A stretch of DNA of 64,000 nucleotides. It comes from Peristeroidobacter soli (GTDB lineage: Bacteria; Pseudomonadota; Gammaproteobacteria; Steroidobacterales; Steroidobacteraceae). The notes below the pieces were generated by a model that was not told the origin of the DNA, made no database searches, and saw nothing but the letters and a program-made list of their open reading frames with translations. Shown in pieces: positions 12,356-54,009 of the stretch (the stretch's first letter is position 1; the number at the start of each line of letters is the position of its first letter). A program made the translations under genes and the position numbers. Location: assembly GCF_004138485.1 (NCBI RefSeq), contig NZ_RYEV01000006.1:558001-622000 (forward strand). The letters are read 5' to 3'.

Positions 12356-12359
12356 GGAC

Positions 12360-36119: not shown

Positions 36120-36153
36120 GGGTCGTTCCAATGATGAATTCTGCTGAGCGGGT

Positions 36154-36489
36154 TCACGGGTCCGGACTGACGACCAGCACCAACGTGTCCTCGACCGACT
36201 GCTCGGCGTGCCTGCCTCCGGGCGGCACGACGTAACAATCGCCGGCTTTGATGAGCTCGGTGCCGCTGGCCGCGGTGACGCGCATGCAACCCTCGATCAC
36301 CATCACTTGAACCCACGACTCATGTCTGTGAGGTCTGATCTCGGTGCCTCGCGGCAAGCGATAGAAGGCGGAATAGATGCCATGCTCACCGTTCATGGTG
36401 CGGGCTTCCATCATGGGTGTGCCGCGCACGTCGACCTCCTTCCAATGCAACTGGTCGGAGTGAAAGATTTGAGTTTGCTCGGTACTCAT
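36154..36489 (-). CDS. Small cupin-domain protein
   Basis: A 111-aa single-domain cupin. Motif 1 is 'EIRPHRHESWVQVMVIEG' with metal His residues and motif 2 is 'KAGDCYVVPPGGRHAEQS'. Such small cupins act as isomerases, epimerases, metal-dependent dioxygenases or sensors; which applies here is unknown. It sits 5 bases after the serine hydrolase and 34 before the M19 gene in the same leftward operon. Confidence 0.88.
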   Translation of the reverse strand: MSTEQTQIFHSDQLHWKEVDVRGTPMMEARTMNGEHGIYSAFYRLPRGTEIRPHRHESWVQVMVIEGCMRVTAASGTELIKAGDCYVVPPGGRHAEQSVEDTLVLVVSPDP

Positions 36490-39181: not shown

Positions 39182-39250
39182 CGACGCTCCCCGGCAGACA
39201 AACAAACTGCCGCATGCGAACGTGCGCTCGCATGCGGCATCGATGGCAGG

Positions 39251-41431
39251 TTAGAACTGCGTCCGCAGCGACACACCAAACGTGCGTGGCCGCATCATTG
39301 CCACGGACGGTTGTCCGGAAGCGGTGATTGCCGACAGCTCGCCGCGTTCGTTGCTCACGTTGTAGACGAACAATTGCAGGTCGACCGCGCCGAGTGTGAG
39401 TCCGCCACGCACGTCGACACTGGTGTACGCAGGCAGATCGTGGCGCAGGGGAGCCAGGCTGAAGGTCGTGTCACGCTCTGAAACGTATCGCAACGAGGCA
39501 CCGATCGTCGGTCGCAGCGTACTCGACGAGAACTCATAGTCCGCATCGACCGCGGCGGTGAACTCGGGGACGTTCGGCAGCGAATCGTCTTTCGCGGCGT
39601 AGAGATTCGGATCCGCCCGGGACAGCGACGCGTCCTGATAGGCAAAGCTGCCACTGAAACGCAAATCATCGATCGGACGCGCGACCGCGGCGAGCTCGAA
39701 GCCATCGATGGTGGCCCGGCCGGAATTGCGCATGCCGCCCAGCGGATTGGTCAGATCGAACACTTGAATATCGGACCAGTCGACGTGGTACACCGCTGTA
39801 TCGAGCGAGTAGGCGCGATCGCTGCTCTCGATCCGGTAGCCGATTTCGTAGCTGTGCAACGAATCGGACTCGAAGGTCGAGGGCGTGCCGGGCAGCACCA
39901 CGAAATTCGGGCCGCCCGGGCGATAGCCGGTGGCATAGCGGACGTACAGCGTGGAATGTTCGTTGAAGCTGTAGCGCGCGTTGGCCAGATAGGTGGTGAC
40001 GTTTTCATCCGAGCTGGCCGGGAAATAGCCCGTGAAAGGTTCGAGCAGCAGCCCGCTGAGGGTCTGGTTGTAGGTCTGATCGATGGTCGAATAGCGAGCC
40101 CCCGCCGTGACATCGAAACGATCGGTGAGATGGAAGGTCAAGTCGCCGAAGAACGCCAGTTCTTCATAGGTCGACGGCGCGTCGATGAGGGCCAGCGGCA
40201 TGCCGAAAGCCGAGATGTAGTTTGGCGCGGGCGCGCCCGAGACGTCCTCGAGCACGGTCGCTGAGGCTCGGGTGCTGTCTTCGTCCGTGTAGAACCCGCC
40301 GAGGATCCAATCGACACGATGCTTGCCGCTGGAGGCGAGGCGGATCTCTTGCGTGAACTTCTCCGTGCGCGGCCGATCGGTGAGGCCGATGCCGCCGTAG
40401 GGCAGTCCGACCGAGGCGAGCAGTGGCACGAACGAAGGCGACAGGTCGGTCACGTTCTTGGTATCGGTTTCCTGATAGCTGGAAATGCTGGTCAGGGTGA
40501 CGCCACCGAAATCGTAGCTGACGGTGCCGGCGAACAATTGAAACGTCTGATCGAAGGGCTCGGCGATGGGACGAACCTGGCTCAGATCGTCGACCACGGG
40601 GCGAGCGTTCGGCTCGGGAGTGAAGTCGACGGTGCCGGTGCCGTCGCGTTGGATATCCTGCAACTCGGCGACCAGCCGGATCGACAACGCCTCCGTCGGT
40701 TTCATCAGGAAATCGGCGCGCAGACCGCTGAGGTCGGCCTGGTTCACGTCTTTGTCACGGTTGCTCGGATTGTCGACGAAGCCGCCGTCGTGCGTGTAGA
40801 ACCCGCTGAGGCGCAGCGCGGCCACGTCCGTCACAGGAATGTTTACTGCCAGCGCACCGTTGTAGGAGACACCGCCGTCCTCGGTGCTGGAGATTCCGGA
40901 ATTGGCGCTGCCGCTGAACTGCGTGGCATCGGGTTCGACTGTCACATACTTGATCAGGCCGCCCATCGAGCTTGCGCCGTAGAGCGTGCCTTGCGGTCCA
41001 CGCAGGACTTCGATACGTGACACGTTGAAGAGCGAGCCGTCCGAGCCGTAGTGCGAGTTGCGCCCGAAGCCGCTGCTCGACCCATAGGGCACTTCATCGA
41101 CATACGTGCCCACCGTCGCGCTGACATCGACGCCGCCAACGGTGATGCCGCGCAGAGAAATCTGGTTTTCACCAGCGCCGCGCGTGGAGAGAGAAATGCC
41201 CGGCACGGCGCTCGCCAGTTCTCGCAGCTGAGTCACGCCCGAGCGACTGAGGTCGTCGGCGGAGAGCACGGAAACTGCTTGAGGCACGTCGATCAGGCGT
41301 TCGGCGCGTCTTTGCGCCGTCACTACGACCTCCTCCAATTGATTGATGTCGGATGCGTTTTGGGCGTGAGCCGCGGCGCCGATCGCCAGCGTCGATGACA
41401 GCACGCAAGCCAGTTGACGTGACCTCTTCAT
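39251..41431 (-). CDS. TonB-dependent receptor
   Basis: A 726-aa outer-membrane receptor: signal peptide 1-24 (ends 'AAAHAQ'), TonB box 'LEEVVVTAQRR' (about 32-42), plug (about 45-160, 'VPQAVSVLSADDLSRSGVTQ', 'VLRGPQGTLYGASSMGGLI'), then the barrel ending 'PRTFGVSLRTQF'. It belongs to the FecA/FyuA-like 'pesticin-type' group common in substrate-rich catabolic clusters. AGGA lies just before ATG 41431, and a GntR-type palindrome lies 24-42 bases upstream. It is the first gene of a leftward operon reaching 34950. Confidence 0.95.
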   Translation of the reverse strand: MKRSRQLACVLSSTLAIGAAAHAQNASDINQLEEVVVTAQRRAERLIDVPQAVSVLSADDLSRSGVTQLRELASAVPGISLSTRGAGENQISLRGITVGGVDVSATVGTYVDEVPYGSSSGFGRNSHYGSDGSLFNVSRIEVLRGPQGTLYGASSMGGLIKYVTVEPDATQFSGSANSGISSTEDGGVSYNGALAVNIPVTDVAALRLSGFYTHDGGFVDNPSNRDKDVNQADLSGLRADFLMKPTEALSIRLVAELQDIQRDGTGTVDFTPEPNARPVVDDLSQVRPIAEPFDQTFQLFAGTVSYDFGGVTLTSISSYQETDTKNVTDLSPSFVPLLASVGLPYGGIGLTDRPRTEKFTQEIRLASSGKHRVDWILGGFYTDEDSTRASATVLEDVSGAPAPNYISAFGMPLALIDAPSTYEELAFFGDLTFHLTDRFDVTAGARYSTIDQTYNQTLSGLLLEPFTGYFPASSDENVTTYLANARYSFNEHSTLYVRYATGYRPGGPNFVVLPGTPSTFESDSLHSYEIGYRIESSDRAYSLDTAVYHVDWSDIQVFDLTNPLGGMRNSGRATIDGFELAAVARPIDDLRFSGSFAYQDASLSRADPNLYAAKDDSLPNVPEFTAAVDADYEFSSSTLRPTIGASLRYVSERDTTFSLAPLRHDLPAYTSVDVRGGLTLGAVDLQLFVYNVSNERGELSAITASGQPSVAMMRPRTFGVSLRTQF

Positions 41432-41454
41432 TGCTAGTCCTCCCCGTGTGTATT

Positions 41455-41473
41455 TTTGGAGACTTTATCCAAT
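41455..41473. promoter_or_regulatory. ATTGGATA-type operator before the leftward TonB-receptor operon
   Basis: TTGGA (41456-41460) and TCCAA (41468-41472) are perfect inverted arms 7 bases apart. Read on the minus strand the site is ATTGGATAAAGTCTCCAAA, matching elements at 41619, 46225, 48740 and 49975. It lies 24 bases before the receptor start codon. Confidence 0.65.
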
Positions 41474-41618
41474 ATCATTTTTTCACCGCGGATCGCAAAT
41501 GATTCGATGCTGTGCAGCAGATAACGGCTGCATCGTGGAACTGAAGACTATCGAGCCGCATCAACAGGGCTCAGCCAGCGCTGGTGTTTTAGATCACTCC
41601 CAGTACAATAGCGGCACT

Positions 41619-41637
41619 AATGGATTTTGTATCCAAT
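41619..41637. promoter_or_regulatory. ATTGGATA-type operator before the reductase-oxidase-dehydrogenase operon
   Basis: Minus-strand reading ATTGGATACAAAATCCATT, with TGGAT/ATCCA inverted arms. It lies 56 bases before the GTG start at 41693, divergent to the site at 41455, so the 261-base region between the two operons carries one element per operon. Confidence 0.65.
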
Positions 41638-41692
41638 AACGAGAGAATCTGATGGGATCAAGTGATCGCGCCGGCGTACTCAGGGGCAGGCG

Positions 41693-42637
41693 GTGAGCCC
41701 GCCTCATTTCGATAGCGCCGCGCTGAACCGGCTGCTGCAGACGCCGGCGCTCATCGAGGCCTTGGCGGACGCGTTCCGGCGCCCGGCCCAGGTTCCGCTT
41801 CGTCAGAATTTGAAGGATGGCAGTCGCGAGCTGTTGATCATGCCCGCCATCGCCAATGGTCTGGCCGGCGTCAAACTGCTGACCATCGTGCCGGAGAATC
41901 GAGAGACGCCCCGGCGGGTGATCGACGGCTTGTTCATTCTTCTGGACATGAAGAACGGGGGCGCGGTTGCGACCATGGATGCGAGCAAGCTCACTGCGCG
42001 TCGTACCGCCGCAATCTCCGCATTGGCGGCCCGTCAGCTTTCTCGAAGCGCCGCGAGCACTCTGCTGATCGTGGGGGCCGGGCATCTCCCGCCCTATCTG
42101 GCGGAGGCCCACGCCAGCATTCGACCCATTCGTAACATTCTGGTGTGGGCGCGCGATCCCGATAAGGCGGCGCGCTGTGCGGAGGAAATTCGTCGGCGCT
42201 TGCCGGGGCTCACGATTGAAGTCGCACGCCGACTTGCGCCAGCCGTGGCCGAAGCGGACATTGTCTCGGCGGCCACGCGTGCCACCGAGCCGCTGATCAT
42301 GGGCGAGTGGCTGCGCCCCGGCGTGCACGTGGATCTGGTGGGCGGCTATCGGCCCGATATGCGCGAGATCGACGATGTGGGAATCGCTGCCGCCGAGATT
42401 TATGTCGACGATGTCGCTGCGGCGCTGGCTGAAGCGGGCGATCTACGCTCGCCGATCGAACGAGGCATCATCGGTCGTGAGGCGATTCGTGGCGGGCTGG
42501 CTGAGTTACTCACACGAGACCCGGCGGTTCGTCACCGACCGGTGACACTGTTCAAGGCGGTAGGCACCGCGCTGTCCGATCTGACCGCAGCCGCGTTGGC
42601 TTGGCATTCCCATCATGGGGGATGCGATGAACGATGA
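41693..42637 (+). CDS. Ornithine cyclodeaminase / mu-crystallin family protein (possible ketimine reductase)
   Basis: A 314-aa NAD(P)-dependent family member: 'MPAIANGLAGVKLLTIVPEN', 'DGLFILLDMKNGGAVATMDA', 'LTARRTAAISALAARQLSR', 'LIVGAGHLPPYLAEAH' (a Rossmann region with GAGHLPP in place of GxGxQA) and 'GVHVDLVGGYRPDMREIDD'. Family members include ornithine cyclodeaminase, alanine dehydrogenase and delta1-piperideine-2-carboxylate (ketimine) reductase. The pipecolate-type oxidase and ALDH7 gene behind it favour the reductase role, which is inference. GTG 41693 follows AGGGGCAGG. Confidence 0.85.
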   Translation: MSPPHFDSAALNRLLQTPALIEALADAFRRPAQVPLRQNLKDGSRELLIMPAIANGLAGVKLLTIVPENRETPRRVIDGLFILLDMKNGGAVATMDASKLTARRTAAISALAARQLSRSAASTLLIVGAGHLPPYLAEAHASIRPIRNILVWARDPDKAARCAEEIRRRLPGLTIEVARRLAPAVAEADIVSAATRATEPLIMGEWLRPGVHVDLVGGYRPDMREIDDVGIAAAEIYVDDVAAALAEAGDLRSPIERGIIGREAIRGGLAELLTRDPAVRHRPVTLFKAVGTALSDLTAAALAWHSHHGGCDER

Positions 42638-43910
42638 TCCGCGCTCGCACGGGCTCTGGGAGAGCTCGGCGCCGGCGGCGCCTGCAACCCGTGAGCTCGA
42701 GGGCGATCTGCAAGCGGATGTCGTGATTCTGGGCGCCGGTTTCACTGGATGTTCAGCGGCGCTGCATCTTGCGCAGCGAGGCGTCCGCGCCATCGTTCTG
42801 GAAAAAAACGACATTGGCTTTGGTGGCTCCGGTCGGAATGTCGGGCTGGTCAATGCGGGCATGTGGGTGATGCCCGATGAGTTGCCGCGCGTGCTTGGCG
42901 CCGAGTATGGTGAACGCCTGCTCACGCAGCTGGGCGAAGCGCCCTCGGTGGTGTTCGATCTCATCGAGCGATTCGCGATCGATTGTGAGGTGACGCGCAC
43001 TGGCACGTTGCATTGTGCAGTGGGACGGCGCGGGCTCGAGGAAATCAAGGAGCGGGCGCGCCAGTGGCAAGCTCGCGGTGCCGATGTGGTGTTGCTGGTC
43101 GGCAAAGAAGTCGAGCGCCTGGTCGGCACTCAGCGGTATGAGGGCGCATTGTTGGATCGGCGCGCGGGAACGATACAACCGCTGGCCTACGTGCGTGGTC
43201 TGGCAAAGGCTGCAATTGAACTTGGCGCGTCCGTGTTCATCCGGTCCGCAGCGCTGCGGAGGGAAGATGTTTCCGGCCGGTGGAAGATCAGCACCGCGCG
43301 TGGCAGCGTCACGGCGGGTTGCGTGCTCCTGGCCACCGATGTTTATTCCACGGACATTGGCGCCGCAATCAAGAACGAGCAGGTGAGATTGCCGTACTTT
43401 CAGCTGGCCACGGCGCCGTTGAGTGAACGGGTGCGCCAATCGATTCTTCCCGAGCGACAGGGCGCGTGGGATACCAAGCAGATCCTTTCTTCCTTCCGTC
43501 TCGATCGATCGGGCCGCCTCATCTTCGGTAGCGTCGGCGCCTTGCGTGGCGGCGGTGCGCAGATTCACAGAGACTGGAGCCGTCGGGAGCTGATACGTCT
43601 GTTTCCGCAGCTTGGCGATGTAGCGATCGACCACGAGTGGTTCGGCATGATCGGCATGACTGCCGATGCGCTGCCAAGGCTGCACATCCACGACCGACAG
43701 GTATTTTCGATCAGCGGCTACAACGGGCGCGGCATCGGCCCGGGTACTGTGATGGGTCGCAACCTGGCGCGACTCGCGCTCGGCGATGTCTCTATTCACG
43801 ATCTTCCTTTGCCGGTCACCGACGTGTCGCCTGCAAGCTTACGCACCGTCAAGGAAGCCTTTTACGAAGTGGGTGCCCAGCTTGCGCATTTCACCGGTGC
43901 CCGCATTTAG
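42627..43910 (+). CDS. FAD-dependent amine/D-amino acid oxidase, possible pipecolate oxidase
   Basis: A 427-aa DAO-family flavoprotein. 'DVVILGAGFTGCSAALHLAQ' is the FAD Rossmann motif. 'DIGFGGSGRNVGLVNAGMWV' is the conserved GxSGRNxG loop of glycine, sarcosine and pipecolate oxidase relatives. 'ISGYNGRGIGPGTVMGRNLA' is the C-terminal FAD contact. ATG 42627 follows GGGGGA and overlaps the preceding gene; ATG 42615 is an alternative. With an ALDH7 gene 24 bases downstream it fits L-pipecolate oxidation to delta1-piperideine-6-carboxylate, but other cyclic or secondary amines remain possible. Confidence 0.87.
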   Translation: MNDDPRSHGLWESSAPAAPATRELEGDLQADVVILGAGFTGCSAALHLAQRGVRAIVLEKNDIGFGGSGRNVGLVNAGMWVMPDELPRVLGAEYGERLLTQLGEAPSVVFDLIERFAIDCEVTRTGTLHCAVGRRGLEEIKERARQWQARGADVVLLVGKEVERLVGTQRYEGALLDRRAGTIQPLAYVRGLAKAAIELGASVFIRSAALRREDVSGRWKISTARGSVTAGCVLLATDVYSTDIGAAIKNEQVRLPYFQLATAPLSERVRQSILPERQGAWDTKQILSSFRLDRSGRLIFGSVGALRGGGAQIHRDWSRRELIRLFPQLGDVAIDHEWFGMIGMTADALPRLHIHDRQVFSISGYNGRGIGPGTVMGRNLARLALGDVSIHDLPLPVTDVSPASLRTVKEAFYEVGAQLAHFTGARI

Positions 43911-43934
43911 CATCAGCGACGAGGCCGTTCGTTC

Positions 43935-45455
43935 ATGACCACTGCATTACGGATCGAAACACACACTCTTCTGAAACAACTGGGCGTCGATGCTGAATTG
44001 CTCCAGGGCGGCACGCTCGCGGTCAGATCGCCGGTCACCGGCGAGGCAATCGCCGAAGTGCACCAGACCAGCACTGCTGAAGCCGAGAGATTCATCGCCC
44101 AGGCCGACGAGGCGTTTCAACACTGGCGCATGGTGCCAGCGCCTCGACGCGGCGAGTTCGTGCGACAACTCGGTGAGGAATTGCGCGTGCACAAGCAGGC
44201 GCTCGGCAGGCTGGTGTCGATCGAGGTCGGCAAAGCCATCTCCGAAGGCCTGGGCGAAGTGCAGGAAATGATCGATATCTGCGACTTCGCGGTGGGGCTG
44301 TCGCGCCAGCTCTATGGCCTGTGCATTCCCTCGGAGCGACACGACCATCGCATCACTGAGCAATGGCATCCCATCGGGCCGGTCGGCGTCATCTCGGCGT
44401 TCAACTTTCCCGTAGCGGTGTGGAGTTGGAATGCTGCCCTGGCCTTTGTCTGCGGCAACAGCGTGCTCTGGAAGCCCTCGGATAAGACTCCGCTGACGGC
44501 GCTTGCAGTACATGCGCTGGTTGAGCGCGTGATGTCACGTTTCGGTGAAGATGCGCCGCGCGGCCTGTCGAGCGTATTGATCTGCGGCCGTGCAATCGGC
44601 CAGCTGTTGGTCGACGATCCGCGCATCCCTGTCGTTTCAGCCACCGGCTCGACTCGAATGGGGCGCGAAGTGGGAGCGCGTCTCGCGCAGCGTTTTGGCC
44701 GAGCCATTCTCGAGTTGGGCGGCAACAACGCCGCGATCGTGACACCCTCGGCGGATCTGGATCTGGTACTGCGCGCCGTTGCGTTCGGCGCCATGGGAAC
44801 CGCCGGTCAGCGCTGCACGACCCTGCGGCGTCTCATCGTCCACGCGGATGTCTACGATAAAATCGTGCCTCGGCTGATCGGTGTTTATGAAAAGGTCAGC
44901 GTCGGCGATCCGCTGCGCACGGATGCACTGGTGGGACCGCTGATCGATGGCGCTGCATACGAAGCAATGACCAAAGCGCTCGAGAGCGCACGCGCCGCCG
45001 GCGGCCGCGTTCATGGCGGCACGCGTGTCGATGTCAACGGCCCGGACTCCTTCTACGTTCGTCCTGCCTTGGTAGAGATGAAGGAGCAGGCGGCCTGCGT
45101 GCGTGAGGAAACATTCGCGCCCATTCTTTACGTACTCAAATATGAGAGCCTCGATGAGGCGATCAAGTTGCAGAACGCGGTCCCGCAGGGCTTGTCGTCA
45201 TCGATTTTCGCAACCGACATGCGCGAGGTCGAGCAGTTCCTGTCCGCCAGGGGCTCCGATTGCGGTATCGCCAATGTGAACATGGGCACCTCGGGTGCGG
45301 AGATCGGCGGTGCCTTCGGCGGCGAGAAGGAAACAGGCGGAGGCCGCGAGAGCGGTTCGGATTCCTGGAAGGCGTATATGCGCCGTCAGACGAACGCCAT
45401 CAACTACGGACGTTCGCTGCCGCTGGCGCAGGGAGTGAAATTCGAGGTCGAGTGA
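43935..45455 (+). CDS. amaB: ALDH7-family aldehyde dehydrogenase (alpha-aminoadipate semialdehyde dehydrogenase type)
   Basis: A 506-aa NAD-dependent aldehyde dehydrogenase with catalytic Cys294 in 'GTAGQRCTTLRR' and Glu260 in 'ILELGGNNAAIV'. 'WHPIGPVGVISAFNFPVAVW', 'NSVLWKPSDKTPLTALA' and 'GGEKETGGGRESGSDSWKAY' are typical of the antiquitin (ALDH7) group, which oxidises alpha-aminoadipate semialdehyde, the open form of piperideine-6-carboxylate. This makes the three-gene set a plausible lysine/pipecolate branch leading to 2-aminoadipate. The gene symbol is by analogy with Pseudomonas AmaB. The 3' end meets the convergent GntR gene through a short hairpin. Confidence 0.9.
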   Translation: MTTALRIETHTLLKQLGVDAELLQGGTLAVRSPVTGEAIAEVHQTSTAEAERFIAQADEAFQHWRMVPAPRRGEFVRQLGEELRVHKQALGRLVSIEVGKAISEGLGEVQEMIDICDFAVGLSRQLYGLCIPSERHDHRITEQWHPIGPVGVISAFNFPVAVWSWNAALAFVCGNSVLWKPSDKTPLTALAVHALVERVMSRFGEDAPRGLSSVLICGRAIGQLLVDDPRIPVVSATGSTRMGREVGARLAQRFGRAILELGGNNAAIVTPSADLDLVLRAVAFGAMGTAGQRCTTLRRLIVHADVYDKIVPRLIGVYEKVSVGDPLRTDALVGPLIDGAAYEAMTKALESARAAGGRVHGGTRVDVNGPDSFYVRPALVEMKEQAACVREETFAPILYVLKYESLDEAIKLQNAVPQGLSSSIFATDMREVEQFLSARGSDCGIANVNMGTSGAEIGGAFGGEKETGGGRESGSDSWKAYMRRQTNAINYGRSLPLAQGVKFEVE

Positions 45456-45476
45456 AGCGCCGGGCGCGGCGGCGCT
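45456..45476. terminator. Stem-loop between convergent ALDH and GntR genes
   Basis: AGCGCCG (45456-45462) and CGGCGCT (45470-45476) form a perfect 7-bp GC stem directly after the ALDH stop and overlapping the GntR stop. There is no T-tract on either strand, so it is only a possible terminator. Confidence 0.4.
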
Positions 45477-46179
45477 ATGAAGCGAAGCCGCGCTTGTCGA
45501 GCAGCATCAGCAGTTCGTCGCCGTTCGCCTGGATGTGATCGCGCGTCAGCGCCACGGCTTGATTGATCTGACGCTTGCGGCAGAGCTCGAGCAATGCCGC
45601 ATGTTCTTCGAGCGCCCGGGAGAAAGATTTGCCCAAGGTCAGCAGCACCTGCGTATAGCGCTCGGAATTGATGAGCAGGCCGCGCACGATTTCGAGCGTC
45701 CGGGTGCGATTCGAGGGCGCGTACAGCACCATGTGAAAACGCCGGTTCAGGTCGCCCCAGGAATGGATGTCGTCGCCGCTGATGGCGTCGTCGAACTTGC
45801 GGATCAACGCGTTCGCCTCGCTGAACACCGCTTCGGTGAGATTGGGTATTGCCAGGCGGATCAGCTCGGGTTCGAGCATGACGCGCAGATCGAACAGCTC
45901 CTGGATTTCGCTGCGCGACAGGCCGGTGACGACATAGCCCCGGTGCGGGAAGCTCGCGACCAGTCCTTCGCTTTCCAGCCGGGACAGCGCTTCACGGACC
46001 GGAATGCGGCTCGTGCCCATTTCTTCGGCGAGCGCGTCCTGGCGCAGCGGCGCGCCGTCCTTCACCGCGCCCGACAGGATGAGGCGGCGCAATTGCTCGG
46101 TCACGGCGTCCACGACGGTCACTCGCGCGACCGGTTTGGAAATACGTTTCGTCGCTTCTCTGGCCACACTACATCCCAA
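45475..46179 (-). CDS. GntR-family regulator, FCD subfamily (candidate local master regulator)
   Basis: A 234-aa regulator. The winged helix covers about 20-85 ('TVVDAVTEQLRRLILSGAVK', 'LRQDALAEEMGTSRIPVREA', 'LSRLESEGLVASFPHRGYVV') and the FCD domain about 95-225 ('IQELFDLRVMLEPELIRLAI', 'WGDLNRRFHMVLYAP', 'HAALLELCRKRQINQAVALT'). The start is either TTG 46179 or GTG 46167. It sits centrally among five operons that share an ATTGGATA palindrome, the length and form expected for FCD-GntR operators. One copy lies before its own gene, suggesting autoregulation. Confidence 0.9.
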   Translation of the reverse strand: MGCSVAREATKRISKPVARVTVVDAVTEQLRRLILSGAVKDGAPLRQDALAEEMGTSRIPVREALSRLESEGLVASFPHRGYVVTGLSRSEIQELFDLRVMLEPELIRLAIPNLTEAVFSEANALIRKFDDAISGDDIHSWGDLNRRFHMVLYAPSNRTRTLEIVRGLLINSERYTQVLLTLGKSFSRALEEHAALLELCRKRQINQAVALTRDHIQANGDELLMLLDKRGFAS

Positions 46180-46224
46180 ACGAATACATCCGATACAGCA
46201 TACCGGCGTCCCTAAACAGCAGCA

Positions 46225-46243
46225 ATTGGATTAAATCGGCAGG
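46225..46243. promoter_or_regulatory. ATTGGATT half-operator before the GntR gene
   Basis: AATTGGATTAAATC (46224-46237) matches one arm of the ATTGGATA elements found at the neighbouring operons, but the second arm is poor. A related GAATACATCCGATAC at 46182-46196 may be a second site. Both lie just upstream of the GntR coding region. Confidence 0.4.
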
Positions 46244-46257
46244 ATGCCGCCGGCCGG

Positions 46258-47829
46258 CTAGGCAAGCACGGCCTCGATCAAACAGGGGCCGGGTTCGGCG
46301 CTGGCCCGTCGAAAACAGTTCTCGAATTCTTCCGCGGTCTGGCAACGCGTGGCGGGCACGCCCATGCCTCTGGACAAAGACACCCAATCCAGGTCGGGCG
46401 GGGTCAGATTCAACAGCGTCGCCGCCGACGCGTGCGGCGAGCCGGCGCCGGTGCGAGTGAATTCCTGATGCAATATTTTGTAGGAACGATTGGCGAAGAC
46501 GATCGTGACCACGTCGAGCGATTCACGCGCCATGGTCCAGAGACCTTGCAGCGTATACATCGCCGCGCCGTCGCCACTGAGACAGACAACCTTGGAGGCG
46601 GGCTTGGCCACGGCGGCGCCGATCGCCAGAGGAATGGCGATGCCGATCGAGCCGCCGGTCAAGGCGAGTACTTCGTGAGGTCGGGCTGTGCTGCTCGCGG
46701 CGGTGACGCCATCGCGTGAAGTGACGGAATCGTCGCAAACGATGGCGTTTTCGGGCAGGTGTCTCGCGATCGATACGCCAACGCTGAGCGGCGTCAACTT
46801 GCCGCTCGGCGCCTCGGGCAGATGCAATTCCTGCGTCGGTCCTCGCAGCGGCGCTTCGAGGGCATCGGCGAGATCCGCCAATGCATGCACGGCATCTTCG
46901 GTGCGAGAGGCGAGTGATATATCCCGGCAGCCTTCGGGGACGAAGGAGGAGGGCTGGCCTGGATACGCAAAGAAGGCGACGGGTGAGTCGGTTCCCGCAA
47001 GAATCATTACATCGACGCCGGCGAGCTCCGCTTTCACTCCTTCGGCGCGATACGGCAGGCGCGCGGGGGCGAAGTGCCCGGCGCCGCGAGGTTGACGGGC
47101 GATGAAGGTGTCGACGAACACGCGAACGCCCAGAGCTTCGAGCCTGGCCGCTTGCCGCAGACCGGCGTCGAGAGCGGCTTGATGACCCAGCAGCAGCACA
47201 GGTTTGGCTGCCGCGCGAACGGCTCTGGCGATTGCCTCGATACGTTGGCTATCGACGCGCGCCCGTTCGGGCGCCGTAACTTTCGGCGGCGGCTCGGCTC
47301 GCAGTCCGCTCCAGGCTGTATCGGCGGGCAGTATCAGACTGACCGGCCCGTTCGGCGGCGTGAGGCTGGCGCGAATCGCTTCGACCGTGATTGCGGCCAT
47401 CTCGCTGGCGCTTTCGGCTGAACGACACCACACCGAGTTGGGTCGCGCCAACGACATGATGTCGGAATTCAGTGGTGCGTCGTACGCCCGATGATAGGTG
47501 GCGTGATCGCCGATGATATTGACGATGGGGGTGTAGGCCCGGCGCGCGTTGTGAAGATTGGCGGCGCCGTTGGCATAGCCGGGGCCGAGGTGCAGGAGCG
47601 TGCACGCCGGCCAGTCCGCCATTCGACCGTAACCGTCGGCGGCGCCAGTGGCGACGCCTTCGAACAGACAAAGGATGGGGCGCAACGAGGGGCAGTGGTC
47701 GAGCGCGGCGACGAAATGCATTTCGCTGGTGCCTGGATTGGCAAAACAGGCGCGCACATTGTTGGCGGTGAGTGTGTCGACCAGCGTCGTCGCGCCAGTC
47801 GAGCTGAGAGCATCGGTCGTGGTTGTCAT
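46258..47829 (-). CDS. Thiamine-diphosphate-dependent enzyme, acetolactate synthase large-subunit-like
   Basis: A 523-aa ThDP enzyme. 'RACFANPGTSEMHFVAALD' holds the catalytic Glu36. 'LLHLGPGYANGAANLHNARR' and 'YTPIVNIIGDHATYHRAYDA' complete the PYR domain. The C-terminal PP domain has 'TGGSIGIAIPLAIGAAVAKP' and the ThDP motif 'CLSGDGAAMYTLQGLWTMAR' with the later Asn in 'VFANRSY'. This branch is usually labelled acetolactate synthase, but it is about 40-50 residues shorter than IlvB and may be a 2-oxo acid decarboxylase. It starts 12 bases after the alpha/beta hydrolase and would use 2-oxo acids from the transaminases. Confidence 0.88.
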   Translation of the reverse strand: MTTTTDALSSTGATTLVDTLTANNVRACFANPGTSEMHFVAALDHCPSLRPILCLFEGVATGAADGYGRMADWPACTLLHLGPGYANGAANLHNARRAYTPIVNIIGDHATYHRAYDAPLNSDIMSLARPNSVWCRSAESASEMAAITVEAIRASLTPPNGPVSLILPADTAWSGLRAEPPPKVTAPERARVDSQRIEAIARAVRAAAKPVLLLGHQAALDAGLRQAARLEALGVRVFVDTFIARQPRGAGHFAPARLPYRAEGVKAELAGVDVMILAGTDSPVAFFAYPGQPSSFVPEGCRDISLASRTEDAVHALADLADALEAPLRGPTQELHLPEAPSGKLTPLSVGVSIARHLPENAIVCDDSVTSRDGVTAASSTARPHEVLALTGGSIGIAIPLAIGAAVAKPASKVVCLSGDGAAMYTLQGLWTMARESLDVVTIVFANRSYKILHQEFTRTGAGSPHASAATLLNLTPPDLDWVSLSRGMGVPATRCQTAEEFENCFRRASAEPGPCLIEAVLA

Positions 47830-47841
47830 GGTCGCGAGTGA

Positions 47842-48717
47842 TCAGGCCTGAGCACGAAGAAAGGCGAGGATTTCAGCGCCGATGAGGTCCGGCTGTTCGG
47901 CGTGCAGAAAGTGACCGACGCCGTCGATCACCCGACGTTGCAGGCTTCCGGTGAAGAATGGCGCCATCGCTGCGCCGAGGTCGGCGCCGATGCAGCCGTC
48001 ATTCCGGCCGTGCAGATAGAGCGTGGGAACGGTGATGGGCTGTTTGAGTCTGGCGGCGATTTCACCCGGCGGAGCGGGGCCGGCGCCAAGGGCCTGACGA
48101 TAGTAGGCCAGAATTTCTGGCAGCACGCCCGGCACCGCCAGGCGTTGCTTCAGCTCCTGCATCTGCGCGGCGGGCAGTTCGAAGCCGGGTGACCATTCTC
48201 GCCAGAGCCGCGCGATGAACGCGAAATCCTCGTGCGCCACTGCCGCTTCGGCGAACGGCAGTTGCAGAAAGAACCAATACCAGGAGCGCCGCTGCTGATC
48301 GCCGTCGAACAGCATCGCGCGACCGAAGGCGGGGCCGTATGGCACGGCCAATGTCACCAGATGTTTGATTCTTTCCGGTGCCAACGCCGCGGCTGTGTAC
48401 GCCGCCGCTGCGCCCCAATCATGGCCGATGATCGCCGCGTGCTCGTAACCAAGCGCCGATATGAGTTCGAGTGCATCGGATGCGGTCGCCCACTCGCGAT
48501 AATTTCCATCGGGCGCCTTGGCGGCCGGGGTATATCCACGCAGCGCTGGCGCGACGGCGCGAAAACCATTCGCCGCAAGTTTGCTCATGAGTGGAGTCCA
48601 GGTGCGGGGCTGATCGGGAAAGCCGTGCAGGCACACGACCAGCGGGCCTTCGCCTTGCGTGAGGATCTCGATCTCCATGCCGTGGAGTTGCACGGCATCC
48701 CGCATCGGTTCTGGCAT
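47842..48717 (-). CDS. Alpha/beta hydrolase, epoxide hydrolase-like
   Basis: A 291-aa hydrolase. Oxyanion motif 'CLHGFPDQPRTW', nucleophile Asp in 'AAIIGHDWGAAAAY', acid in 'YLHGRNDGCIG' and His in 'VGHFLHAEQPDLIG' fit the epoxide hydrolase / haloalkane dehalogenase group with an Asp nucleophile. I chose the ATG at 48717, with GGGAG 8 bases upstream. The ATG at 48738 would put the start against the operator and leave no leader. It is first in a leftward pair with the ThDP enzyme. Confidence 0.88.
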   Translation of the reverse strand: MPEPMRDAVQLHGMEIEILTQGEGPLVVCLHGFPDQPRTWTPLMSKLAANGFRAVAPALRGYTPAAKAPDGNYREWATASDALELISALGYEHAAIIGHDWGAAAAYTAAALAPERIKHLVTLAVPYGPAFGRAMLFDGDQQRRSWYWFFLQLPFAEAAVAHEDFAFIARLWREWSPGFELPAAQMQELKQRLAVPGVLPEILAYYRQALGAGPAPPGEIAARLKQPITVPTLYLHGRNDGCIGADLGAAMAPFFTGSLQRRVIDGVGHFLHAEQPDLIGAEILAFLRAQA

Positions 48718-48739
48718 CTCGAGGGCTCCCAGTTGCATA

Positions 48740-48758
48740 ATTGGATATAATCTACAAT
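48740..48758. promoter_or_regulatory. ATTGGATA-type operator between hydrolase and aminotransferase genes
   Basis: ATTGGATATAATCTACAAT is a 19-bp odd palindrome with 7 of 9 matching pairs centred at 48749. It contains TATAAT (48746-48751), usable as a -10 for the rightward aminotransferase. It lies 22 bases before the leftward hydrolase start and 33 before the rightward gene, so one site could control both. Confidence 0.65.
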
Positions 48759-48791
48759 AGTCTATCCGTTTGAACAGTGCGAGCCAATTCT

Positions 48792-49946
48792 ATGAGCGAG
48801 CTGATGGTCGATGCCGGGATCGCGCCCTTCCACGCCAAGGAGCTGAGCTTGCTGGCTCGCCGTCTGGCCGAGGAGGGACGCTCGGTTCTGCACATGGAAT
48901 TCGGTCAGCCGTCGGCCGGCGCGCCTCGAGGAGCGCGACAGGCCGCGCAAGCCGCGATCGATACCGATCCTATGGGCTACTGGGAGAGTCCTTCGTTGCG
49001 ACAGGGACTATCGCGTCACTATCGCGACGAATACGGGCTGAACATTTCCTCGGACAGATTCGTCGTCACCGCCGGCGCATCGCCCGCGCTCGTGCTGGCG
49101 TTGCTCTCGCATCTGAAGCCCGGTGCGCGCGTCGCCATTTCGCGGCCGAGCTACGCTGCATATAGAAACACACTGCGCGCGTTGCGCCTCACTCCTGTCG
49201 AGATCGCATGCGGAGCAGAGGTTCGTTATCAATGGACGGCGGAGGCCATCGCCCGTATCGACCCGGCGCCGGCAGCGATCATCATCGCCAGCCCCGCCAA
49301 CCCGACCGGGACCATTCTATCTCCCGAGCAACTGCGCGCGATTGCTGGCGTGTGTCGGGAGCGGGAAATCCTGATGATTTCCGATGAAATCTATCATGGT
49401 CTGAGCTACGGTCCGCGCACTCACTCGATTCTGGAGTTCGAGCCGGACGCGCTCGTCATCAATAGTTTCTCCAAATATTTCGCCATGCCTGGCTGGCGCC
49501 TGGGCTGGCTCGTTGCGCCGGAGTCGCGGGTTCAGCGCATTCGTGACTACGTGAGTTGCCTGTTCCTGACGCCGCCCTCCGTCAGTCAACACGCGGCCAT
49601 CGCGGCGTTGAATTGCAGAGCCGAGCTCGACGCCAACCTCGAGACGTACCGGCGCAATCGCGCGATGTTGATCGAAGCCATGCCGCGCCTGGGCTTGCAA
49701 ACCATCGCGCCTCCCGATGGTGCGTTCTATATCTATGCGGATGTGGGGCATCTGACCGCCGACAGCCTGTCGTTCTGTCGCGAGCTGCTCGAGCAGACCG
49801 GCGTCGCCCTCGGACCTGGCATCGATTTCGATCCCGTCGAGGGGCATCGCTTCGTGCGATTTTGTTTCGCCATTTCAGCGGCGCAGACCGAGGAGGCGAT
49901 CGCGCGACTGGTGCCCTGGTTTACGCAGTATCGGCGACGCCTCTGA
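48792..49946 (+). CDS. PLP-dependent aminotransferase, class I/II
   Basis: A 384-aa fold-type I aminotransferase: 'LHMEFGQPSAGAPRGARQAA', 'VVTAGASPALVLALLSHLKP', 'IIIASPANPTGTILSPEQLR', 'LMISDEIYHGLSYG' and the PLP lysine in 'INSFSKYFAMPGWRLGWLVA' (the class I signature). It ends with '...RLVPWF', as in AspC-like bacterial enzymes. Within the putative regulon it could transaminate 2-aminoadipate or the amino acid released from the imported compound. GTG 48777 is an alternative start. Confidence 0.92.
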   Translation: MSELMVDAGIAPFHAKELSLLARRLAEEGRSVLHMEFGQPSAGAPRGARQAAQAAIDTDPMGYWESPSLRQGLSRHYRDEYGLNISSDRFVVTAGASPALVLALLSHLKPGARVAISRPSYAAYRNTLRALRLTPVEIACGAEVRYQWTAEAIARIDPAPAAIIIASPANPTGTILSPEQLRAIAGVCREREILMISDEIYHGLSYGPRTHSILEFEPDALVINSFSKYFAMPGWRLGWLVAPESRVQRIRDYVSCLFLTPPSVSQHAAIAALNCRAELDANLETYRRNRAMLIEAMPRLGLQTIAPPDGAFYIYADVGHLTADSLSFCRELLEQTGVALGPGIDFDPVEGHRFVRFCFAISAAQTEEAIARLVPWFTQYRRRL

Positions 49947-49969
49947 TGTGACGTCACCGGGTTGCGTTG

Positions 49970-49997
49970 TTGAAATTGGATAAAATATCTGTAGTAT
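49970..49997 (+). promoter_or_regulatory. Promoter with ATTGGATA element before the TonB-CocE-MFS-M19 operon
   Basis: TTGAAA (49970-49975), a 16-base spacer and TAGTAT (49992-49997) resemble a sigma-70 promoter. The spacer carries ATTGGATAAAATATC (49975-49989), the same element as at four other operons here, although its second arm is weaker. Repressor binding in the spacer would block transcription. Confidence 0.55.
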
Positions 49998-50035
49998 CGA
50001 TTTCGTCGGCGAACAAAATGACCAGGGGTTGATCG

Positions 50036-52249
50036 ATGAAGCTGCACGCGCCTGTCGTGGCCACACTGCTTGGCTTGAGTTTGCACAGTCCGAGCGGTCA
50101 GGCGCAGGACACGAATCAAACCGGCGGCGGTCTGGAAGAAGTCATCGTCACCGCCACCAAACGTTCCGAATCCATTCAAGATGTCCCCGTCAGCATCCGC
50201 GCGCTGGGCGAGCAGGAGCTGCGGCGCATGGGCGCCGATTCGCTGGAGGATTACGCCGGTGTCACTCCCGGACTGCAATTGACCGGTACTCGCAACAACA
50301 GTCAGATCATCGTGCGCGGCGTGACCACCGGTCCCGTCAATCACGATCAGACCGAGATCAAGGAAACGGTCGGCGTGTATCTGGATGAAACACCGATCGC
50401 CGTACAACGCTACAGCCCGAACCTGAAGCTGTTCGATCTGGAGCGCATCGAAGTTCTGCGTGGCCCGCAGGGCACGCTCTATGGTGCCGGCTCGATGGCG
50501 GGTGCGATCCGCATGATCACTCGCAAGCCTCAGCTCGACCGCGTCGCCGGCGAAGTCCGCGGCATGATGTCCAGCACCGAGCATGGCAGTGCCAGCAATT
50601 CGTTCGATGCAATGTTGAACGTGCCACTGATCGACGACGTGCTGGCCATGCGCGCCGTGGGTTTCTATCGCGACGTCGGTGGCTTCATCGACAACGTTGC
50701 AACTGGAGATGACGACGCTAATTCCGAGCTCAGCCGCGGCGGTCGCGTGGCGACGCGGTGGACGCCCAACGAAACTCTCACCGTCGACAGCCTGGTGTTC
50801 TTTCAACAGTCGGATTTCCGCGCGATCTCGCAATATGCCGCCGAGGCGGGCGAGCTGAAAACCTACGTCGCCGAGAACGAGCCGGTCCACGATCGCAATC
50901 TGATCGTGTCGCTCAGCGCCACTCAGCAGCTCGATCCGTTGGAGGTGACCGCGGTGGGCTCCTACCGCCGCAAGAAGCTGCAATATTTCTCCGAGAACGG
51001 CACCTTCACCAACTTCATCACCGGCTTCCGTGACGGCCTGGGTGGCACGTTCGACAATCGCTCCAATCAGCGCGATTACAGCTTCGAGCTGCGGGCGGCG
51101 TCCAAGTCCGACTCCTGGTTGCAATGGACCGTCGGTGCTTTCTACGAGGATCGCACCAACTTCTATTCGCAGGACTACACGGTGGCCGGCGTCGACGCGG
51201 TGGCCGGTATCGACAGTCGCGATTTCGATGCCAACATCGATCAGCTGTATTTCAGCAATATCGATGTGAAGGAGAACCAGGTCGCGCTGTTCGGCGAAGT
51301 GGTGTTCCCGCTGACCGATGCGTTGAAGCTCACCGCCGGCGGCCGCTACTTCCGGGCCGAACAGCAGGCGGATATCACTTTTCTCGGCGTGTTCGCCTAT
51401 CCCAACATCGGCGTCGGTCGCTTCAAGAACGACGAGGACGGTTTCAATCCGCGCGTGAACCTTTCCTACGCCATCGATCGGGATCGCATGGTGTATGTGC
51501 AAGCCGCGCGCGGCTTCCGTCTCGGCGGCACCAACGAACCGATTCCGCAACCGGCATGTACGGCGGATTTGCAGAGTCGCGGTCTGTCGAACGCGCCGGA
51601 CAGCTTCGACTCCGACCATCTATGGAATTTTGAAGTCGGCACCAAGACGGATTGGCTCGACCGGCGCCTCACTGTCAACGTCGCGGCGTACAAGATCGAT
51701 TGGAAAAAGCCCCAGGTCACCGATCAGCTCGGCTGCGGCTTCAATGTCTTCGTCAACGCCGGCGGCCTGGATATCTACGGTGCGGAAGTAGAGACGATCG
51801 TGCGTCCCACCGATTACCTCACGGTGCGTGGCGGTGCTGGATACACCGATAGCACGTTGAACGAGGACCTGGTGTTTGTCGGCGGCCGCGAAGGCGATCG
51901 CGCGCCCTATGTTCCGAAGTGGACCTACAGCGCATCGCTCGACTACACCCGGCCGCTCGGTCAAAGCTTCGAGGGCTTCGCCTTTCTGAGCTATCAGCAC
52001 ACCGGTGCGCGCGACACGCGTTTCAACCCGTCCGTTGCCGCGTCCCGGCATCTGGACAGCTACGGTCTGCTCAACGCCCGCATCGGCATCAACGCCGCCA
52101 ACTGGTCGGTGGAACTGTTCGGTGAGAACCTGACGGACGAGCTCGGCGAAATCGACAAGCGTTACAACCCGTATCCGTTGACTCCAGCCACCTACGTGAC
52201 GGTGGTTACGCCGCGGACCGTGGGGTTGGAAGTCACATATCGGTATTGA
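50036..52249 (+). CDS. TonB-dependent receptor
   Basis: A 737-aa outer-membrane receptor: signal peptide 1-24 (ends 'SGQAQ'), TonB box 'LEEVIVTATKR' (about 33-43), plug (about 45-165, 'DVPVSIRALGEQELRRMGAD', 'VLRGPQGTLYGAGSMAGAIR'), and a barrel ending '...RTVGLEVTYRY'. It is similar in type and length to the receptor at 39251. It lies 38 bases after a promoter with an ATTGGATA element and is followed, with overlapping starts and stops, by a CocE hydrolase, an MFS carrier and an M19 protein. Confidence 0.95.
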   Translation: MKLHAPVVATLLGLSLHSPSGQAQDTNQTGGGLEEVIVTATKRSESIQDVPVSIRALGEQELRRMGADSLEDYAGVTPGLQLTGTRNNSQIIVRGVTTGPVNHDQTEIKETVGVYLDETPIAVQRYSPNLKLFDLERIEVLRGPQGTLYGAGSMAGAIRMITRKPQLDRVAGEVRGMMSSTEHGSASNSFDAMLNVPLIDDVLAMRAVGFYRDVGGFIDNVATGDDDANSELSRGGRVATRWTPNETLTVDSLVFFQQSDFRAISQYAAEAGELKTYVAENEPVHDRNLIVSLSATQQLDPLEVTAVGSYRRKKLQYFSENGTFTNFITGFRDGLGGTFDNRSNQRDYSFELRAASKSDSWLQWTVGAFYEDRTNFYSQDYTVAGVDAVAGIDSRDFDANIDQLYFSNIDVKENQVALFGEVVFPLTDALKLTAGGRYFRAEQQADITFLGVFAYPNIGVGRFKNDEDGFNPRVNLSYAIDRDRMVYVQAARGFRLGGTNEPIPQPACTADLQSRGLSNAPDSFDSDHLWNFEVGTKTDWLDRRLTVNVAAYKIDWKKPQVTDQLGCGFNVFVNAGGLDIYGAEVETIVRPTDYLTVRGGAGYTDSTLNEDLVFVGGREGDRAPYVPKWTYSASLDYTRPLGQSFEGFAFLSYQHTGARDTRFNPSVAASRHLDSYGLLNARIGINAANWSVELFGENLTDELGEIDKRYNPYPLTPATYVTVVTPRTVGLEVTYRY

Positions 52250-52251
52250 GC

Positions 52252-54009
52252 ATGCCGAACCTGAAATGGTGGATGCTCGTGTTCATCGCGGCAACGATGG
52301 CGCAGGCCGTCGTTGCCGAGGTGACGCCGAACGAGCCGGGTCACGACGTCGAGTACGAGCTCAACGTGCGCGTTCCGATGCGCGATGGAACATCGTTATC
52401 GGCGGATATCTTTCGTCCCAAGGCGGACGGTAGATTTCCGGTGCTGTTGACGCGCACGCCTTATACGAAGAACAAAGGAAGCGCGAACTCCTATGCCAGG
52501 CAGGGACGCTACTGGGCCTCGCGCGGCTATGTATTCATGGTTCAGGACGTGCGTGGCCGAGGCGATTCCGACGGACGTTTCTACCCGTTGATCAACGAGG
52601 CGACGGACGGTTTCGACAGCCAGCAGTGGGCGGGGGCGCAGCCCTGGTCGAGCGGCAAGGTTGGCACTTTGGGCGGCTCGTATCTCGGCTGGACACAGGT
52701 TTACGCGGCCCCGCTGCGCAGCCCGCACCTGGCTGCGATGGTCCCGACGGTGACGCCGCCCGATCCGAACCGAAATTTTCCGACGGCCTCTGGCGTGTAC
52801 ATGCCCGCCGCATTGTTGTGGCTCGCAGGCCTCGATGGACGGATCAATCAGGATCTGGACGGTCCCGATATCAACGCTGCGTTGAGTAGCAGTCCGCTGG
52901 TGACGATGGACCGGCGAATCGGCCGCGATTTGCAGGTGTGGCGCGACTGGGTGGCGCATCCCGCCAACGACGAGTATTGGCAGCGTCAGTCCTATCAGGA
53001 TCGGTTGCTCGACGTCGATACACCCATGCTGCACGTGAGCGGCTGGTACGACGATGTCCTGGTCGGTACCACTGAAAATTTCATCAACATGACGACTCGC
53101 GCCCGCACGCCTCAGGCCAAGGCGCGCCAGCGCATGCTGATCGGTCCTTGGGGGCATGCCGTGAATGCCGGACAAAAACTCGGCGCCATCGATTTCGGAC
53201 CGCAGGCCGTGATCGATTTCGATGGGCTGCAGGCGCGCTGGTTCGATCGCTGGCTGAAGCAGATCGACAACGGCGTCGATCGTGAGGCGCCGGTGCGCGT
53301 GTTCGTCATGGGCCGCAACCAATGGGTCGATGAAAACGAGTGGCCGATCGCTCGCACTCGATACACCAGGTACTACCTCCGCAGCGGCGGCAACGCGAAC
53401 GGACGCGAGGGTGACGGTGTGCTCAGCACTCGTGCGCCCGGCAGCGAAAAGCCCGATCGATTCCAGGCCGATCCCGCCAATCCAGTGCCGTATCTGACCG
53501 CGCTCAACTGGCATCAAGTCGGCGGTCCCGACGATTTCAGCGAGATCGAGTTGCGACGGGATCTGCTGGTTTACACCGGGCCGGTGGTCGACGAACCTGT
53601 GCGGATCTGTGGCCCATTGCGAGTCAAATTGTTTGCAGCTTCCTCGGCGCGCGACACCGACTGGACCGCCAAGATTCTGGATGTGCATCCGAGCGGATTC
53701 GCGCAGCGTCTGAATGACGGCGTCGTGCGTGCCCGATTTCGCAATGGACCGGATCAGGAACGGCTGCTCACCCCTGGCAAGGTGGAGGAGTATGAGATCG
53801 ATGCCTGGTCCACCTGCGTCGAGTTGCAGAAGGGGCATCGCTTGCGACTGGAGATCGCATCGAGCGCCTTCGGCAAGTTCGATGTGAATCCAAACACCGG
53901 TGGCCCGATAGGCACCGAAACACAACGGGCGATCGCGCAGCAGACGGTTTATCACGACCGACTGCGGGCTTCCTACTTGCTGCTACCGGTAGTGTCGCCT
54001 CGTCCATGA
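52252..54009 (+). CDS. CocE/NonD family hydrolase (S15 type), exported
   Basis: A 585-aa protein with a signal peptide (about 1-22, '...AQAVVAEV'). 'LNVRVPMRDGTSLSADIFRP' opens the hydrolase domain, nucleophile Ser143 lies in 'GTLGGSYLGWT' (canonical GGSYxG), the acid is in 'LHVSGWYDDVLVGT', the His region is 'MLIGPWGHAVNAG', and a C-terminal jelly-roll contains 'LRVKLFAASSARDTDWTAKI'. It is a paralogue of the enzyme at 23364. It likely cleaves an amide, ester or X-Pro peptide bond in the periplasm next to its receptor. The ATG lies just after the receptor stop; TTG 52246 is an alternative. Confidence 0.92.
   Translation: MPNLKWWMLVFIAATMAQAVVAEVTPNEPGHDVEYELNVRVPMRDGTSLSADIFRPKADGRFPVLLTRTPYTKNKGSANSYARQGRYWASRGYVFMVQDVRGRGDSDGRFYPLINEATDGFDSQQWAGAQPWSSGKVGTLGGSYLGWTQVYAAPLRSPHLAAMVPTVTPPDPNRNFPTASGVYMPAALLWLAGLDGRINQDLDGPDINAALSSSPLVTMDRRIGRDLQVWRDWVAHPANDEYWQRQSYQDRLLDVDTPMLHVSGWYDDVLVGTTENFINMTTRARTPQAKARQRMLIGPWGHAVNAGQKLGAIDFGPQAVIDFDGLQARWFDRWLKQIDNGVDREAPVRVFVMGRNQWVDENEWPIARTRYTRYYLRSGGNANGREGDGVLSTRAPGSEKPDRFQADPANPVPYLTALNWHQVGGPDDFSEIELRRDLLVYTGPVVDEPVRICGPLRVKLFAASSARDTDWTAKILDVHPSGFAQRLNDGVVRARFRNGPDQERLLTPGKVEEYEIDAWSTCVELQKGHRLRLEIASSAFGKFDVNPNTGGPIGTETQRAIAQQTVYHDRLRASYLLLPVVSPRP

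Follow-up and report, generated by a model that had tools for sequence, protein, structure and literature searches.

An operator-like element repeated around an FCD-GntR gene of Peristeroidobacter soli: a candidate local regulon with a lysine/pipecolate-type oxidative branch

Several described systems resemble parts of the locus considered here, and the outline given of them follows excerpts of the cited papers. HypR is an FCD-GntR repressor of L-hydroxyproline use in Streptomyces coelicolor, which represses its own gene and controls imino-acid catabolism as well as a putative collagenase from several promoters (PMC6608401). In Escherichia coli, CsiR/GlaR acts at asymmetric sites of the form TTGTN5TTTT (PMC6265302, PMC6667623), and extra half-boxes 7-12 nt from the centre of the operator are common in the FadR subfamily (PMC4494728). 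On the metabolic side, Pseudomonas putida is known to have the section of the D-lysine route that runs from piperideine-2-carboxylate (P2C) through pipecolate and piperideine-6-carboxylate (P6C) to aminoadipate (PMC6034422). This report concerns a 64,000-nucleotide stretch of Peristeroidobacter soli (assembly GCF_004138485.1, contig NZ_RYEV01000006.1, positions 558,001 to 622,000; the whole of it is called the window below), in which five intergenic elements sharing ATTGGAT lie around a gene for an FCD-GntR regulator. They are read here as probable operators of that regulator, serving a local regulon presumed to hold 16 genes, where an earlier note on this DNA had counted about 17, in six transcription units.

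On both strands together, the window holds six copies of ATTGGAT. A motif scan finds five of them where the earlier note had placed its elements, at 41473 and 41637 on the minus strand and at 46225, 48740 and 49975 on the plus strand, all intergenic; the sixth, at 40311 on the minus strand, is inside a TonB receptor open reading frame (ORF). The five-element observation is real and far from chance. The sites, each 1-60 bp from a start codon, and the regulator gene are as follows.

41455..41473, minus strand: candidate operator W1, ATTGGATAAAGTCTCCAAA; 23 bp from the TonB receptor start codon.
41619..41637, minus strand: candidate operator W2, ATTGGATACAAAATCCATT; 55 bp before the reductase gene; the genome's best 19-bp palindrome of this form.
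46225..46236, plus strand: candidate operator W3, ATTGGATTAAAT, consisting of the block alone; 45-60 bp away from where gntR starts.
48740..48758, plus strand: candidate operator W4, ATTGGATATAATCTACAAT; in the spacer from which the hydrolase and aminotransferase genes diverge, 1 bp from the hydrolase start and 33 bp from the aminotransferase ATG.
49975..49993, plus strand: candidate operator W5, ATTGGATAAAATATCTGTA; 42 bp before the TonB receptor start codon.
45475..46179, minus strand: GntR/FCD regulator; PF00392 at 61.1 bits (cut-off 27) and PF07729 at 84.9 bits (cut-off 24.3).

The shared letters might instead be a core-promoter feature or A/T-rich intergenic chance. The bare 7-mer is indeed at chance frequency (6 seen against a mean of 5.8 in 60 first-order Markov sequences), the element centres resemble -10 hexamers (TATAAT/TAAAAT), and the sole sigma-70-like match in 41200-50100 (1.9 expected) falls at 49970-49997, over W5. 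No such match lies over the other four sites, however, and the block ATTGGATNNAAT occurs at just four places in the 9.37-Mb genome, three of them inside the window, despite the thousands of promoters presumed to be there; to our knowledge, moreover, ATTGG belongs to no promoter consensus. A promoter or chance origin is accordingly very unlikely, and the reading of the elements as operators is carried by the longer forms of the motif. Scored out of 14 against the 19-bp form ATTGGAT-N5-ATCCAAT, the sites reach 13 (41619), 12 (48740 and 41455), 10 (49975) and 9 (46225). Three places in the window score at least 12 where 0.15 are expected per 64 kb; scores of at least 10 are ordinary (15 seen, 10.8 expected), so that 49975 and 46225 are at chance by palindrome score and stand out solely through the block.

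The rarity of the motif was assessed by pattern scans of the whole genome, weight matrices being run on the window and on individual loci. With two or fewer mismatches, the 19-bp palindrome has 11 places in the genome, three of them in the window, and 41619 is the only one with a single mismatch. The refined pattern ATTGKATANAATMTMCANT, at the same tolerance, is found genome-wide only at 48740 (the sole match with no mismatch), 41619 and 41455; at exactly three mismatches there are 12 further places, which include 49975 and not 46225. Eighteen of 20 look-alikes elsewhere in the genome were analysed (L059 and L060 were left out), including all eight outside places of the palindrome at two or fewer mismatches and the full set of 11 that the refined pattern gives at three. 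By codon usage, 13 of the 18 are coding and five intergenic, and a weak distant member of the regulon may be among the latter. An intergenic GATGTATATCGTATACTAT between two divergent large ORFs (L110 3127-3145; G000:C1:1974126-1974144) is perhaps the operator of another regulator.

In shape, the element departs from the uniform 19-bp palindrome that had been proposed. Perfect 5-bp arms exist as claimed at 41455 (TTGGA/TCCAA) and 41619 (TGGAT/ATCCA), and at these two of the five sites only; the right arm is good at 48740, poor at 49975 and missing at 46225, being clear in three sites of five, and the description of 46225 as a half site holds, with the block present and no right arm. A ten-site matrix has high information at positions 1-4, 6-8, 10-12 and 14, about 1 bit at 5, 9, 13 and 15-17, and less beyond. 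The operator thus appears asymmetric, with a strong ATTGKATAnAAT block (left half plus A/T centre) and a weaker MTMCA right arm. A locus in another genome (G117, L128, near 9951) carries ATTGTATACAATATACAAT, in which three half-sites follow one another, upstream of a GntR-profile match (4.2e-36), and is a possible model for the origin of extra half-boxes; because of this run, both a narrow palindrome with an extra box and the wide palindrome of the earlier note seem possible. In the left arm, the window sites have TTGGAT and those of G573, G219 and G117 have TTGTAT, to be compared with the TKGT/ACMA type; the sequences by themselves are compatible with wide as well as narrow symmetry. The position of W3 upstream of gntR makes autoregulation probable.

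The regulator itself has both a GntR winged helix and an FCD domain above cut-off, which places it in the FCD (FadR) subfamily. Its real start is perhaps further in, at GTG 46164 or, by codon usage, at 46122. The residues H149, H193 and H215 are present, with spacings of 44 and 22; D143 was considered as a metal ligand and dropped. The protein scores 64.2 bits against a cut-off of 218 with the CsiR model NF008576, and its best NCBIfam match, PhnR of the Burkholderia type (TIGR03338), reaches 101.4 bits against 271.5.

Relatives of the regulator were sought in 196 genomes of the order, 217 of the family and 369 of the class (overlapping samples), and matches at E 1e-40 (order and class) or 1e-35 (family) were present in 7, 20 and 3 genomes, respectively, P. 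soli included. The loci of 26 homologues were examined for their best palindromes; an additional search of genome contigs gave one distant match (28%), which is left out of these 26. In G232, whose GntR is 39-40% identical, ATTGGATACAATCTACAGT and ATTGGATACAATCTACATT stand on the two sides of gntR, and in G573 (45% identical) ATTGTATAAAATATACCAA and ATTGTATAAAATATATATC do the same. These sites were chosen by eye for likeness of their arms; the centre, AnAAT, was outside that search and yet agrees. G258, described further below, apart, nothing comparable was seen near gntR in the remaining homologue loci, in several of which gntR directly follows a proline-racemase-family gene. Within the 217 family genomes, ATTGKATANAATNTAC has four matches (reversed control, none): one in the window, two at the G232 gntR, as expected since these shaped the pattern, and one in G219 that precedes a TonB receptor gene, with a 32% GntR match 9 kb off. 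A weaker element, ATCGTATACAGTATnCCAC, is at corresponding places in G132 and G120 (GntR 45 and 44% identical; 14.0 and 15.7 bits); in G132 it precedes an aldehyde dehydrogenase-family gene and is not the top-scoring place of its locus.

Because the motif is rare genome-wide and similar sites flank gntR homologues in two genomes, the central FCD-GntR is very probably the binder of the five elements, and the proposal of one shared operator, a local regulon and this regulator as the likely binder is backed to that extent. The site was also sought irrespective of GntR. Among 396 order genomes, ATTGKATANAATMTMC has 13 matches in 11 genomes (reversed control, one), and four of the 11 loci outside the window have a GntR-profile relative at E <1e-35, G232 being known beforehand (3 of 10 are new); of the control loci, 1 of 24 has one at E <1e-35 and 3 of 24 at E 1e-6. 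Fourteen of these 24 controls are motif look-alike loci of P. soli itself, three of the contigs tested are short, chance may account for some matches, and the association of site and GntR across the order is suggestive only.

A single regulon might still have another binder, namely the TetR-type regulator at 56483-57199, whose gene follows the right-hand operon, or one of the 15 further GntR-type proteins of the genome (matches at E 1e-5, labelled GntR-type), of which one lies at 3244-3870 of the window and another about 8.6 kb past its right end. The site is absent, however, from all 15 of these GntR-type loci, taken at 3.3-3.7 kb each (best score 15.8 bits), closely similar elements accompany the gntR homologues of G232 and G573, and one site precedes the local gntR; another binder is unlikely, and the local FCD-GntR protein is preferred. 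The second GntR-type gene of the window (3244-3870, plus strand; G000:C5:561244-561870) encodes a protein 27% identical to the regulator and has no operator nearby.

From the sites, their rarity and clustering, the similar sites at two homologous regulator genes and the family assignments, all of which are results of computation, we infer how the genes are grouped into transcription units, that the protein binds and represses, and which effector, substrate and sequence of reactions are involved, as follows. A GntR dimer would bind ATTGKATAnAATMTMCA near or across each promoter and repress TonB/MFS/serine hydrolase/small ORF/M19, reductase/oxidase/dehydrogenase, gntR itself (weakly), hydrolase/thiamine diphosphate (ThDP) enzyme, aminotransferase and TonB/CocE/MFS/M19. 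A small carboxylate would enter the presumably metal-bearing FCD pocket and free the repressor from DNA; the likeliest candidates are a cyclic imino acid, either P2C or pipecolate, and intermediates further along the route, for instance aminoadipate. The substrate, something like a peptide or an amide, would be imported via the two outer-membrane receptors and then hydrolysed, and the released lysine or pipecolate would be oxidised to aminoadipate. This whole reading, in which the FCD-GntR protein at 45475-46179 uses the five elements as its operators, represses six units and is released by a small carboxylate, and in which import, hydrolysis and oxidation to aminoadipate follow, is given a probability of about 0.82. 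Apart from the regulator, the genes concerned are these.

34950..36131, minus strand: peptidase M19 (membrane dipeptidase family), at the end of the leftward operon; PF01244, 243.7 bits.
36154..36489, minus strand: small ORF, the "cupin" of the earlier note; coding by codon usage.
36495..37784, minus strand: serine hydrolase of the class-C beta-lactamase/esterase fold; PF00144, 163.9 bits; the best 25 of its 44 NCBIfam matches are all far under their cut-offs.
37781..39205, minus strand: MFS transporter; PF07690.
39251..41431, minus strand: TonB-dependent receptor, first gene of the leftward operon; PF00593, PF07715.
41693..42637, plus strand: delta1-piperideine/pyrroline-2-carboxylate reductase-like protein (ornithine cyclodeaminase/mu-crystallin family); PF02423, NF004793.
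42615..43910, plus strand: L-pipecolate oxidase-like FAD enzyme; PF01266, NF050086.
43935..45455, plus strand: L-piperidine-6-carboxylate dehydrogenase (NCBIfam name; ALDH family); NF050084.
46258..47829, minus strand: thiamine-diphosphate enzyme, acetolactate synthase/benzoylformate decarboxylase-like; NF005760, 706.2 bits (cut-off 363).
47842..48738, minus strand: alpha/beta hydrolase; PF00561.
48777..49946, plus strand: class I/II aminotransferase, ATG 48792 likely; PF00155; NF006514, 341.8 bits (cut-off 554).
50036..52249, plus strand: TonB-dependent receptor; PF00593, PF07715.
52246..54009, plus strand: CocE/NonD (S15) hydrolase with a signal-peptide-like start (by eye); TIGR00976, 425.1 bits (cut-off 66.3).
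54006..55334, plus strand: MFS transporter; PF07690.
55324..56328, plus strand: peptidase M19 (membrane dipeptidase family); PF01244, 258.3 bits.

Since TonB, MFS and M19 genes are in both outer operons, these could be duplicates whose sites are shared by descent and have no present function. By eye, however, the DNA flanking the elements is not alike, the element also precedes units that have no copy here (reductase, gntR, aminotransferase), and similar elements exist in other genomes; duplication is the least credible of the alternatives, and present-day operators are the better account. Two receptors, two MFS transporters, two M19 peptidases and hydrolases of the CocE/S15, class-C-fold serine and alpha/beta types together suggest uptake and cleavage of a peptide or amide, and the single pathway with two hydrolytic arms and one oxidative branch that had been proposed is plausible. 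Some M19 enzymes act on dipeptides of the L-Xaa-D-Xaa type, on which the literature searched gave no paper. Two of the window's neighbour families recur at GntR homologue loci, a CocE/NonD relative (35%) in G132 and G120 (L031 and L032, about 12300-12600) and an M19 relative (47%) in G161 and G280 (L036 17533, L038 1072). Directly right of the regulon, 56483-60349 on the plus strand holds the TetR regulator gene and then one for a 1031-aa TonB-dependent receptor, with no ATTGGAT. Further left, 31141-32319 on the minus strand encodes an aminotransferase-fold protein, whose best NCBIfam matches (models of PdxR/MocR type and the enduracididine enzyme MppQ) are all below cut-off.

The oxidative branch, previously given as "reductase/oxidase/ALDH7", can be described more specifically, and looks like the D-lysine/pipecolate route. 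Its dehydrogenase is above the cut-off of the P6C dehydrogenase equivalog NF050084 (811.9 bits, cut-off 730), the other two enzymes being below theirs. Combined, the three enzymes would convert P2C, by way of pipecolate and P6C, into aminoadipate. The aminotransferase could have its place either ahead of these steps or behind them, and a 2-oxo acid might be decarboxylated by the ThDP enzyme. Outside the regulon, at 33691-34953 on the plus strand and convergent with the leftward operon, is a D-amino-acid dehydrogenase-like gene (346.4 bits, cut-off 383) with no ATTGGAT nearby; its product may supply P2C from D-lysine. Elsewhere in the genome there is a DUF1338 (HglS) match (82 bits, cut-off 25; positions 48-291 of 386), and these two genes could complete a D-lysine route. 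Pipecolate oxidase matches at E 1e-80 are present in 46 of the 217 family genomes, P. soli included. Twelve of these places were fetched, and the five best outside the window (51-62%), several of them on short contigs, have no GntR match nearby; one has a reductase relative and one a 26% aldehyde dehydrogenase fragment. Their top palindromes score 11 of 14, one of these lying about 100 bp before the oxidase gene of G234, without an A/T centre.

A number of results weigh against the operator-and-pathway reading as a whole. The oxidase scores 448.6 bits where the L-pipecolate oxidase AmaA exception model (NF050086) requires 600, and the reductase falls 6 bits short of the P2C reductase equivalog NF004793 (315.8 against 322), each being nevertheless the best family for its protein (for the oxidase, the next is at 111.2). 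No orthologous cluster was found in the searched genomes of order, family and class, and no GntR match exceeded 45% identity. The element is present in only 2 of the 26 homologue loci; G258 has ATTGGAAGTCGTATTCAAT, with 12 of 14 letters in the arms, which lacks the A/T centre and is not counted. In favour of the reading, no other distinct place in the 64 kb scores as high as the five window sites with a matrix built from five foreign sites (four from G232 and G573, one from G219), at both 12 and 19 bp, in a test that is partly circular because the G232 and G573 sites were hand-picked for likeness to the window arms; with a combined matrix, the window sites, which are in its training set, score 20.9-31.3 bits, and the highest value reached in 40 random 64-kb sequences was 20.83. 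Against it, the plain palindrome at three or fewer mismatches has 124 genome places (reversed control, 12) and is therefore not specific; the hundreds of unrelated sites that the earlier note gave as a refuting outcome are not seen for the full motif, which at two or fewer mismatches is confined to three window sites. Also against the reading, W3, with no right arm, escapes the genome scan for the refined pattern even when three mismatches are allowed, and W4 abuts the annotated hydrolase start.

The neighbours of the regulator's kin bear on its origin. HypR and LhpR are names for the hydroxyproline type of regulator. The context of that type, a 4-hydroxyproline epimerase and a deaminase of the dihydrodipicolinate synthase (DHDPS) type as neighbours, is not seen here, the window having no proline-racemase or DHDPS match. 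Within about 1.5 kb on each side, a gene of one or both families is present in 20 of the 26 homologue loci against 0 of 26 control loci. Three of six scanned proline-racemase-family proteins pass the cut-off for 4-hydroxyproline epimerase (G573, G213, G219) and three fail (G232, G132, G774), the best name for that of G232 being trans-3-hydroxyproline dehydratase (404.7 of 550). Because of these neighbours and cut-off results, the regulator's kin appear mostly to serve hydroxyproline catabolism. This reading of gene neighbours suggests that the regulator was recruited from hydroxyproline catabolism to its six-ring analogue. A bolder version, in which a hydroxyproline-clade regulator has come to respond to a six-ring imino acid and governs a self-contained 16-gene, TonB-fed island, with one operator at all promoters, for scavenging a pipecolyl-, D-lysyl- or aminoadipyl-containing peptide or amide, is tentative and rather doubtful.

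Compared with described systems, again as excerpted from the papers cited, the arrangement itself is of a known type. HypR resembles the window regulator in being an FCD-GntR protein with three histidines at equal spacing (H142/H186/H208, reported as the metal site of HypR, against H149/H193/H215), but differs in its operator, CTNTGC(A/C)ATGTCAC, and in its hydroxyproline gene targets, of which the proline-racemase and DHDPS families have no match here (PMC6608401). CsiR/GlaR of E. coli and P. putida is likewise a GntR-family repressor of a lysine-derived pathway, released by glutarate (PMC6265302, PMC6667623), from which the present protein differs in its CsiR score and in the genes controlled. 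The P. putida D-lysine/L-pipecolate pathway shares a P2C reductase and pipecolate-oxidising and following enzymes; the window reductase, however, is of the mu-crystallin family, whereas the P. putida enzyme is a "putative malate/lactate dehydrogenase" in a title cited by PMC6034422, and in the window a single operator links these genes to others for TonB receptors and hydrolases. FadR-subfamily operators are similar in being A/T-rich sites of palindromic type and in forming pairs, in divergent gene pairs, each near its own operon, as at 41455/41619; their consensus has GT/AC (TKGT...ACMA), whereas the left arm of the window sites contains GG and a central AC is missing from four of the five (PMC4494728). 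DhdR and LhgR have other operators (PMC8651671, PMC8206213). In the literature searched, no description of this regulon and no paper joining ATTGTATACAAT with GntR was found; a match for ATTGGATA with GntR was judged unrelated from its listing. Should the proposed reading hold, generically named genes (TonB, MFS, M19, CocE, ThDP) can be tested together as one unit for which a regulator, an operator and a chemical theme are named, and the search for the effector narrows to a handful of lysine/pipecolate intermediates. Set beside the regulators that adjoin hydroxyproline genes, the locus may represent a natural case of an FCD repressor switching its target pathway with its operator largely kept.

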